In this document: positions 35,108 through 37,662 of the stretch, one piece after another
How the letters are laid out: the number at the start of each line of letters is the position of its first letter
Numbering within the stretch: the first letter of the stretch is position 1
Assembly (NCBI GenBank): GCA_905234865.1
Contig: CAJOJE010000013.1
Coordinates: 1 to 47,630 of the forward strand
DNA: 47,630 nucleotides
Source: Candidatus Gastranaerophilales bacterium
GTDB lineage: Bacteria; Cyanobacteriota; Vampirovibrionia; Gastranaerophilales; Gastranaerophilaceae
Direction of reading: 5' to 3'
Translations under genes and position numbers: made by a program
Notes under the pieces: generated by a model
What the model was told of the DNA's origin: nothing
Databases searched by the model: none
Seen by the model: only the letters and a program-made list of their open reading frames with translations

Positions 35108-35971
35108 TCAGCCTTTAACAAATGTCATAATGTATTCATGTTCAAAAATGTTAAAACCGCCTGCAAGCGCTCTGTATCTCCACAGATTAGCGGTTTTTCC
35201 TTTTGCTTTTTCATTACCGGTTATGTTTTTTACAATAATTGCTTTTGTTATAAAACCGACTTTTTCCATTCTTTTCATACATTCAAACCCTAAAGGAACA
35301 ACTCTTGAGTTTTTGTATTCATCACCGATTATAAGGGCTGCGTATCTGTCTTTTTCAAGAAGGTCATAAGCATTTTTTGCAACTTTTTCAAACAAATCGT
35401 AAAATTCTTCCGTTGAGGAACAGTTCGATAAATCTTCTTTTTTATCGGAAAATTTAATTATATCATCGTACGGCGGATGAAGAACAACAAACTGCGCTTG
35501 TTTTTTACCCATAATTTCAAGTCTTGCTTTGACTTTTTCTTTTGCAATTTCGGTTGTAGAATCGGCACAAATAATATTAACCGAAGTTACAAGCTCTTTT
35601 TGGGTAAATTTTTCCGCAACATATTTTGTCATTTCTTCCTTTAATTCTACACCTATGCACCTTCTGTTCATATTAAGAGCTTCAATGCCTGAAGTGCCCG
35701 AACCGAAAAAGAAATCCAAAATTACATCATTTTGTTTTGTGTATCTTTCAAATAATTGAGTTGCTATTTGAGGTATATAATTACCATGATAATCATAACT
35801 GTGTCCGTTTGTTTTATCACGAGAAGCAAACTCCCAAAGAGAACCTGTTTTAATATGAGAATAAACTCTCCAATTTTTTAAGTCTATATCATTGTATTTT
35901 GTTGTTTTCGGCTTTTGGACCACCCTTAATTCAGGCAGCTTAATGTCCTGTTTAACTGATTTTTTTGGCAT
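35108..35971 (-). CDS. Probable DNA methyltransferase (amino-MTase fold, HPPY motif)
   Basis: A 287-residue protein with the two main motifs of N6-adenine/N4-cytosine DNA methyltransferases: SAM-binding motif I DFFFGSGTSGIEA (86-98) and catalytic motif IV at 165-168. The catalytic motif reads HPPY where DPPY, NPPY or SPPY is usual. RRCIGVELKEEM (motif II) lies after motif I, and the end NLWRYRALAGGFNIFEHEYI is not assigned. No restriction endonuclease lies next to it, so it may be an orphan enzyme marking DNA for regulation, or a remnant of a phage or a restriction system. An RNA or other substrate is not excluded. It leads a two-gene operon with a SAM methyltransferase. Confidence 0.7.
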   Translation of the reverse strand: MPKKSVKQDIKLPELRVVQKPKTTKYNDIDLKNWRVYSHIKTGSLWEFASRDKTNGHSYDYHGNYIPQIATQLFERYTKQNDVILDFFFGSGTSGIEALNMNRRCIGVELKEEMTKYVAEKFTQKELVTSVNIICADSTTEIAKEKVKARLEIMGKKQAQFVVLHPPYDDIIKFSDKKEDLSNCSSTEEFYDLFEKVAKNAYDLLEKDRYAALIIGDEYKNSRVVPLGFECMKRMEKVGFITKAIIVKNITGNEKAKGKTANLWRYRALAGGFNIFEHEYIMTFVKG

Positions 35972-36083
35972 ATACTACATTACTCCCTAATCAAAGTTAG
36001 AGTGTACATTATTCATGAGAAAATCAAATCATTCTTAAAGAGGAAAAAAATAAAATATACACCATTTAAACTATAATTTAAAA

Positions 36084-36200
36084 AAATCCTAAAGTTATTT
36101 TTAAATGTGCCGTTAAGAATAACATAAGTTAATTTGAAGGAAACTTCAAATTTAACCTCCTCCCCAAGTCTGGTAGCCGCAATTTTAGCGGCTTTTTTTT
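36084..36200 (+). ncRNA. Candidate small RNA with Yfr1-like architecture
   Basis: Two hairpins flank an unpaired pyrimidine-rich stretch. Hairpin 1 (36128-36156) has a 12-bp stem with one bulge and a GAAA tetraloop. The unpaired part (36157-36174) contains CTCCTCCCC, complementary to Shine-Dalgarno sequences. Hairpin 2 (AGCCGC 36175-36180 with GCGGCT 36088-36093 counted from 36000, i.e. the arm at 36188-36193) is followed by eight Ts. TATAAT at 36072-36077 would start the RNA near 36084, but there is no -35 box. Cyanobacterial Yfr1 has the same layout, with ACUCCUCACAC between two hairpins. Homology is not proven. Confidence 0.5.
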
Positions 36201-36274
36201 ATTCATTTTTTTATAAAAAAATTGTAAAGATTAGTTAATATATATTTTATATATATGTTATATATAATTTCAAC

Positions 36275-36391
36275 GTGGAATAATATAATTGGTTAGTTCT
36301 TCTCTTTTCCACTCCTTCCTCCATTATATACTAAATTTAAAGCGATGTTCAGACTTGCTCCAATCGGTCTTGAATTTATCGCTCTTTTTTT
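36275..36391 (+). ncRNA. Second candidate small RNA with long terminator hairpin
   Basis: AGCGAT (36341-36346) pairs with ATCGCT (36378-36383), and the inner TTCAGAC pairs with GTCTTGAA with one bulge; a C and seven Ts follow. Upstream is a pyrimidine-rich stretch (CCACTCCTTCCTCC, 36309-36323). TATAAT at 36263-36268 would place the start near 36275. No ORF of note lies inside. Confidence 0.45.
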
Positions 36392-36441
36392 ATGAAAATA
36401 ACCTCAACTGCATTAAAATCGGAATTTTTAAAATACATATA

Positions 36442-37662
36442 CTATTGTCTGCATAGCGTATACATCGCAGAGGCAGAACCCGTTGCGTATCTTTTTAGTT
36501 CATGCATCGTTACTTGATTTGTTCCAAAATTATAATAAAAAGCACCTATGTTATCATAACTTTCTTCGCCGGTTCCATACTTGTCCAAACTTTCTTCGCC
36601 CATCCATACCTTAAAACCCGGCTCAGGCAACCCGTAAGCAGTAGCGGTACCTGTATTGTATTGTAAATTATAATATGAAACACCGATAGCCTTTGACGAT
36701 GTTGAAGCGGATGAAGTGTTATAAAGAGCATTAATAAGCTCTATTAAATCATTTCTGCTTATCATTTTGTTGACTCCGCCGCATGCTGCAGCTGCTCCTG
36801 CCCAGTAGTCGTCTTTGTTATCAAAATTAAAGCAGCCTTTTATTCCCAAAGAATCCTTTTGCGCTTCGCATTGTGCATAAGTTAAAGGAGAAGGCACAAT
36901 GGCGCTTGAATAACATTTTCCGCCAATTGAAACGGCACATGTGGAACCCAATTTTGTAACATTTAAAAGAAATACATCTTTTCCTATTTTATTCGGTCCT
37001 TTTTCTCCGTTTACATCGTAAATTCCCGATATGCAGGATGTAACGGCACTTGTTAAGGGCTTACCGTCACTATATATCCAGGGGTATATCTCTCTTACCC
37101 TTCTTGTATTACTTATCATGGGGCAATTTGTATTAAAAACAAGAAGCCAATCAACGCCTTCTTTAGTTGTAAAAGAAACAGGGTATGAAGTGTACGCATG
37201 AGTACTATCGCTCAGGGAGTTAAAAAATGTACCGTTTGAAATACTTGAAATTTTTACCTCTTTATTATCCGCAGTCTTAAATTTTTGAGCGGTATAACAA
37301 CTCATATACTGTGACAAATTTGTCGTGGGACCGCCTGCGTTGTACGAGCCCGACAACCCGGTACTTGTCCCGCAATATCTTGTCATTTGAATATTTTTGT
37401 TAAGAAAAAGATTGAAAAACGTATTTGATGAACTGGCGGAAGAACCTACGTATGTGTAAGCAGAACTGGTATTAAGCAGGCCGATTTCAAGGGCTTTTGT
37501 TAATTTTGAAAGAGCCATTTGCTGTTTATTTTTATTTATCTTATCTTGAGTTCCTTGAACAATAACGGAAGTTGCATACATGGCAATTATGCCTATGACA
37601 GCGAGTGTCGTAAGCACTTCAGGCAATGTAAAAGCATTTTTTTTATTTTTAAAATTTAACAT
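36442..37662 (-). CDS. Prepilin-like protein with large extracellular domain
   Basis: A 406-residue protein with a type IV prepilin start: a short basic leader (NFKNKKNA), cleavage expected between A10 and F11, Glu at +5 (E15), and the hydrophobic helix VLTTLAVIGIIAMYATSVIV. The -1 residue is Ala where Gly is standard. The rest is a Cys-, Ser- and Asn-rich secreted domain with the family block CISGIYDVNGEKGPNKIGKD and an ACGGVNKMISRNDLIEL segment. It would be exported by a type II/IV pilus-type system and may form a pseudopilus or be held at the surface. It lies 19 bases after a paralog and is probably cotranscribed with it. The partner function is unknown. Confidence 0.8.
   Translation of the reverse strand: MLNFKNKKNAFTLPEVLTTLAVIGIIAMYATSVIVQGTQDKINKNKQQMALSKLTKALEIGLLNTSSAYTYVGSSASSSNTFFNLFLNKNIQMTRYCGTSTGLSGSYNAGGPTTNLSQYMSCYTAQKFKTADNKEVKISSISNGTFFNSLSDSTHAYTSYPVSFTTKEGVDWLLVFNTNCPMISNTRRVREIYPWIYSDGKPLTSAVTSCISGIYDVNGEKGPNKIGKDVFLLNVTKLGSTCAVSIGGKCYSSAIVPSPLTYAQCEAQKDSLGIKGCFNFDNKDDYWAGAAAACGGVNKMISRNDLIELINALYNTSSASTSSKAIGVSYYNLQYNTGTATAYGLPEPGFKVWMGEESLDKYGTGEESYDNIGAFYYNFGTNQVTMHELKRYATGSASAMYTLCRQ

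Follow-up and report, generated by a model that had tools for sequence, protein, structure and literature searches.

The locus considered here lies in a 47,630-nt stretch of DNA (hereafter, the window) from a Gastranaerophilales bacterium, between a gene resembling N6/N4 DNA methylases and one resembling pseudopilins, and raises two questions: does it encode a small RNA and, if so, is that RNA related to Yfr1 of cyanobacteria? The initial annotation had described a hairpin, an 18-nt linker and a terminator with eight Ts, on the strand opposite to both flanking genes, as a candidate small RNA. This layout proved exact to the base (Table 1) and, because both neighbours are encoded on the minus strand, so did the strand assignment. 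The promoter at 36090–36116 and a second conserved RNA element at ∼ 36275–36391 are additional to that description. As detailed below, the candidate is a genuine RNA gene, judged by its order-wide conservation and by covariation, and it belongs to a real, previously uncatalogued family that has no counterpart in Rfam.

Table 1. Features of the small RNA locus, in window positions.
Feature	Position	Strand	Sequence	Basis or remark
DNA-methylase-like gene	35108–35971	−		PF01555; conserved across the order
−35 box, sigma-28 (FliA) type	36090–36097	+	TAAAGTTA	fixed spacing before orthologues
−10 box, sigma-28 type	36109–36116	+	GCCGTTAA	11 nt past the −35 box
Inferred transcript, ∼ 77 nt	36124–36200	+		start (± 1–3 nt) from promoter spacing; end from T run
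Match to covariance model R1	36132–36200	+		64.2 bits
5′ hairpin, GAAA tetraloop	36128–36156	+	GTTAATTTGAAG-GAAA-CTTCAAATTTAAC	fold; one bulge (sequence reading); other hairpins with compensatory changes in other genera
GAAA loop	36140–36143	+	GAAA	
Near-invariant stretch	36154–36178	+	AACCTCCTCCCCAAGTCTGGTAGCC	77 copies; predicted unpaired anti-Shine-Dalgarno-like seed
Seed part	36156–36170	+	CCTCCTCCCCAAGTC	predicted unpaired
Linker, 18 nt	36157–36174	+	CTCCTCCCCAAGTCTGGT	contains CTCCTCCCC
Intrinsic terminator and eight Ts	36175–36200	+		sequence; compensatory changes
Terminator hairpin	36175–36193	+	AGCCGC-AATTTTA-GCGGCT	
Unbroken T run	36193–36200	+		eight Ts
Second RNA-like element	36231–36391	+	TATATATGTTATATATAAT	promoter-like stretch
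Hairpin of second element	36275–36312	+	GTGGAA...TTCCAC	
Pseudopilin-like gene	36442–37662	−		

Folding of the segment 36100–36205 gave z = −3.07 (2 of 200 shuffles were equally good), and the terminator of the small RNA was the sole terminator-like site in 35800–36500, where 0.1 would be expected. The same core was first traced by DNA search in the genus and in 80 loci around relatives of the methylase-like gene, and a covariance model, R1, was built from 21 copies. R1 matched 275 of the 286 sampled genomes of Gastranaerophilales (96%), usually in a single copy, and 2 of the 96 genomes from other orders of the class (both totals derive from the listing of R1 matches). The best relatives of the locus also come from Gastranaerophilales, in agreement with the non-photosynthetic sister lineage in which the initial annotation had tentatively placed it. 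Genomes of family f4 carry two or three copies, three of them in tandem in G352, and G360 (family f5) has at least three; near-identical tandem copies are spaced by ∼ 362 nt in locus L217 (G352) and by 157 nt in locus L326 (G310). Among the 11 genomes without an R1 match, G316 has a degenerate copy behind a sigma-28-type promoter that agrees with 15 of 16 consensus positions. The position of the small RNA relative to genes shifts from genus to genus. A search against other Rfam families at permissive thresholds produced only sub-threshold chance matches (ctRNA_pT181, RsaF and others), and a literature search restricted to open-licence papers retrieved no report of a small RNA from Gastranaerophilales.

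Comparison of 77 non-redundant copies showed that the sequence CCUCCUCCCCAAGUCURGUAGCC is almost invariant; CCTCCTCCCCAAGTCTAGTAGC is invariant or close to it at almost every position, with an A/G wobble at one. The two copies from another family of the class retain CCTCCTCCCCAAGTC and diverge afterwards. The sequence of the 5′ hairpin varies by lineage, being GAAGGAAACTTC in the window, ACGGATGGAAATTCCATCCG in the sister species and GAAAAACGAAAGTTTTTC elsewhere. Both sides of the hairpin have changed in 11 of the 12 model pairs, with 185 compensated cells compared with 63.5 in shuffles (0 of 500 shuffles scored as high) and a covariation score of 0.469 compared with 0.192 for shuffled and 0.03–0.14 for slid controls. 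The alignment behind these figures was fitted to the model and is biased towards it; folding of the hairpin relative to shuffles (mean z −4.3 for the 77 copies) is alignment-free and independent of that bias. Compensatory changes are also seen in the terminator stem. Both the hairpins and the CCUCC stretch are kept across the order, with the covariation that the initial annotation had proposed to look for in related Gastranaerophilales. The seed is predicted to be mostly unpaired (mean unpaired probability 0.65–0.97 at positions 1–15) and the most conserved part of the molecule is this linker rather than the hairpins. Free hairpin sequences combined with a frozen linker form the pattern required of a pairing RNA.

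The consensus of FliA (sigma-28) promoters is TAAAGTTT-N11-GCCGATAA, and nearly all copies of the small RNA are preceded by a promoter of this type, which appears as TAAAG-N14-NCCGWWAA with ATAAGG ∼ 7 nt further on. The window copy, directly upstream of the small RNA, agrees with 14 of the 16 consensus positions, copies in other families with 15 or 16, and one copy from another family with all 16. Scores of at least 13 of 16 were obtained for 44% of the 77 copies compared with 0.6% of dinucleotide shuffles, although a few copies have weak scores (9–10 of 16); the distance from promoter to core is nearly always 30–47 nt in this set. Genome-wide, the small RNA site is the sole exact match of TAAAGN14GCCGWTAA in the window genome. 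A scan for housekeeping promoters yielded no site on the plus strand ahead of the small RNA, whose transcription, as judged from these promoter sequences, is probably sigma-28-dependent.

The window genome encodes a FliA/WhiG sigma factor (TIGR02479, 249.8 bits, cut-off 189.6) and a close relative of this protein is found in 143 of 146 genomes of the order, including all 136 of good quality. A stricter promoter pattern, TAAAGTTTN12CCGWWA, has 31 sites in the genus compared with 5 for the reversed-pattern control, and many of these sites are located ∼ 15–60 nt ahead of genes of a few recurring families, which share the start ATAAGGAAGG. The enrichment of the pattern and the location of its sites shortly ahead of recurring gene families indicate that a sigma-28-type regulon exists. 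Genes with such promoters (in L150, L155, L165, L170, L171, L173, L179 and other loci) include a recurring family whose products start with MTDFKIGSYTITNKEIYEVLKQENVSDG, carry an EF-hand-like DVNGDKKITEDEL and are plausible exported proteins; their mRNAs begin with ATAAGGAAGG. The flagellar gene sets of most Gastranaerophilales are reported to be incomplete (PMC4040986). No flagellin match was found in the window genome, and FlhA is kept there and in all nine genomes of the genus; flhA is clustered with fliH, fliF, fliE and a lytic transglycosylase gene (G000:C5:91600–98500; L275:11602–18479). A second, shorter FHIPEP-like gene, corresponding to the C-terminal half (∼ 485 aa), is present in most genomes of the genus.

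Which mRNAs might the seed contact? In the window genome, the fliA leader carries ACUUGGGGA, 11–21 nt ahead of the start codon, and its CACTTGGGGAA would form nine contiguous pairs with the seed at −20 to −12. The predicted energy of this pairing, −16.1 kcal/mol, ranks seventh among 419 predicted leaders (a sample comprising ∼ 395 kb of the window genome and the window), and the candidate duplex would cover the ribosome-binding site with about 9–11 pairs. For 13 fliA leaders from the genera g1, g18, g19 and g25, the mean energy was −15.8 kcal/mol compared with −9.4 ± 1.7 for permuted seeds, with p ∼ 0.001, a value that is optimistic because these leaders are related and not independent; the complementary forms AGACTTTGGGGA, GGACATTGGGGA and GGACTTGGGA are found within otherwise diverged leaders. 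The complementarity did not reach significance in the genera outside this group (p 0.13) or in other families (p 0.10), and the 419 leaders overall paired with the seed no better than with shuffled seeds. The lineage is AT-rich, and a CCUCC seed of any kind can pair with many of its Shine-Dalgarno sites. The sigma-28 mRNA is thus a good candidate target, from leader complementarity, in the genus of the window and in g18, g19 and g25, and since the remaining genera gave no significant signal, we retain the fliA feedback loop as a clade-level candidate. The flhA leader showed favourable pairing in G000 and moderate pairing in the one usable relative, G007, and we make no target claim for it. In several relatives, the leader of the methylase-like gene contains TTGGGGAG, which is complementary to the seed of the nearby small RNA.

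The initial annotation had left it open whether the RNA is a relative or an analogue of Yfr1. Yfr1 comprises two stem-loops around an unpaired linker of 16–20 nt with an ultraconserved CUCCUC-containing stretch, and a terminator (PMC2190773), and is constitutively abundant (PMC6778093). The Gastranaerophilales RNA likewise has two stem-loops, supported by covariation, with 18 unpaired nucleotides between them; like Yfr1, it is single-copy and near-universal in its lineage, its second hairpin is the terminator, its linker is single-stranded and contains CUCCUC, and it is proposed, from its sequence, to pair with mRNAs. This shared layout (PMC2190773), the sister-lineage relationship and the complementary distribution of the Yfr1 motif and the small RNA within the phylum are what a diverged orthologue of Yfr1 might be expected to show, and yet such an origin is very improbable. 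A search with the Rfam model of Yfr1 (RF01116), the check that had been suggested for kinship, gave no match in 35900–36400 at E-values up to 10, and none of 13 orthologous loci reached the gathering score, whereas 7 of 12 cyanobacterial control loci exceeded it; conversely, model R1 found no matches when run against Yfr1. The seed, CCUCCUCCCCAAGUCURGU, differs from the Yfr1 undecanucleotide ACUCCUCACAC, which is absent from the linker. The extended motif CACTCCTCACACC occurs in 122 of 156 genomes from other classes of the phylum compared with 2 of 131 in the order, being absent from G000 and from 129 of those 131. Neither trxA nor guaB adjoins the small RNA, and the sigma-28-type promoter implies control quite different from that of Yfr1. 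With the family model, motif and neighbours all negative and the cyanobacterial controls positive, we rejected homology to Yfr1; the resemblance in layout stands as analogy.

Other readings of the locus can be weighed against the same data. The presence of a canonical intrinsic terminator could mean that the hairpins merely terminate or attenuate transcription of a neighbouring gene, an explanation with hardly any probability left, as there is no plus-strand gene before or after the small RNA in the window, the element has its own promoter, the linker is better conserved than the hairpins and the locus moves between genera. It is also improbable, if somewhat less so, that a housekeeping sigma factor transcribes the small RNA from ATATAAG or AACATAAG as the −10 box and that the sigma-28 boxes are coincidental: a TATAAG-like string does overlap the presumed start in many copies, but it lacks a conserved −35 box at 17 nt, the ATAAGGA string also trails sigma-28-type sites of protein genes, and TAAAG is found 28 nt upstream at a fixed spacing, with GCCGATAA in between and up to 16 of 16 matches to the FliA consensus. 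A further alternative takes the small RNA as real and has it work chiefly through protein binding or as a general decoy that mimics the anti-Shine-Dalgarno tail of 16S rRNA. Invariance that extends past the anti-Shine-Dalgarno part into AAGUCURGUAG would fit this proposal, as would the behaviour of the sampled leaders with shuffled seeds; nevertheless, the motif is predicted to be unpaired and is C-rich like those of the mRNA-pairing Yfr1 and alpha-r14 RNAs (PMC6778093, PMC10746234), and its CCCCAAGUC part finds matches in the fliA leaders of four genera, so that we regard this mode of action as unlikely, though the least so of the alternatives.

Partial parallels exist in two other known systems. 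The alpha-r14 or cuckoo RNAs of Rhizobiales (RFMSmelA075, NfeR1) carry CCUCCUCCC in unpaired parts and have variable stems (PMC3927594, PMC10746234). The anti-Shine-Dalgarno motif CCUCCUCCC is identical in the small RNA, but alpha-r14 RNAs, which occur in several copies, display it in three or four hairpin loops, whereas here the motif is not repeated in several loops; CCTCCTCCC occurs once, in the linker, and continues, unlike in alpha-r14, into AAGUCURGUAGCC. The FliA-made small RNAs, which include CJnc170/FlmR and CJnc10 (CjNC1/CjNC4 paper) of Campylobacter and UhpU, MotR, FliX and FlgO of Escherichia coli, are considered to exert feedback on the flagellar cascade (PMC11187230, PMC4626219, PMC10578931). 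The RNA described here resembles them in its promoter, and its genome likewise encodes a FliA/WhiG sigma factor; its sequence bears no apparent likeness to the Campylobacter or E. coli RNAs. The E. coli sigma-28 RNAs are UTR-derived, whereas that of Gastranaerophilales is stand-alone, with the sigma factor mRNA itself as the candidate target, and is conserved over an order mostly without a complete flagellum (PMC4040986).

The second RNA-like element, located downstream on the same strand (Table 1), has a core, GGTTAGTTCTTCTCTTTTCCACTCCTTCCTCCATTATATAC, that is identical in nine of nine genomes of the genus, and a variable terminator. It bears the anti-Shine-Dalgarno-like CUCCUUCCUCC and is also found in g18 and g19 (12 of 146 genomes of the order); in relatives it occupies another locus. 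An apparent copy of it downstream of the small RNA in L221 was rejected as a short coincidence.

The reading we favour, and consider quite likely on sequence grounds, is a gene of Gastranaerophilales for a trans-acting small RNA that would be made under sigma-28, pair through its seed with Shine-Dalgarno regions and block translation. Sequence evidence supports its parts: the gene stands alone, behind a FliA/WhiG (sigma-28) type promoter of its own, and encodes a 5′ hairpin kept in shape but not in sequence, an intrinsic terminator and an essentially invariant seed, CCUCCUCCCCAAGUCURGU, 15–24 nt in length and predicted to be unpaired. Activity of the FliA/WhiG sigma factor would lead to synthesis of the small RNA, whose hairpins may stabilize it and keep the seed open; the seed could then pair with Shine-Dalgarno regions bearing (GAC)UUGGGGA(G) or GGGGAGG, and translation would be blocked. 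With the sigma-28 mRNA as candidate target, a negative feedback loop might result in the genus of the window and in g18, g19 and g25. More tentatively, and with the odds rather against it, repression of the sigma-28 mRNA by the small RNA might represent an RNA-based negative feedback that was kept where flagellin was lost and that is older than the order, since two genomes from a different family of the class also carry both seed and promoter; on the same tentative footing, gut lineages could have retained the sigma factor together with a flagellar-type export apparatus.

The near-universal presence of the small RNA in the order suggests a core regulatory role. Through it, post-transcriptional control would be tied to a FliA/WhiG sigma factor that persists in genomes without flagellin, and this link may offer a handle on the role of leftover flagellar-type genes in gut bacteria. 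Lacking Yfr1, the lineage sister to photosynthetic cyanobacteria thus possesses a near-universal RNA of its own with that same architecture.
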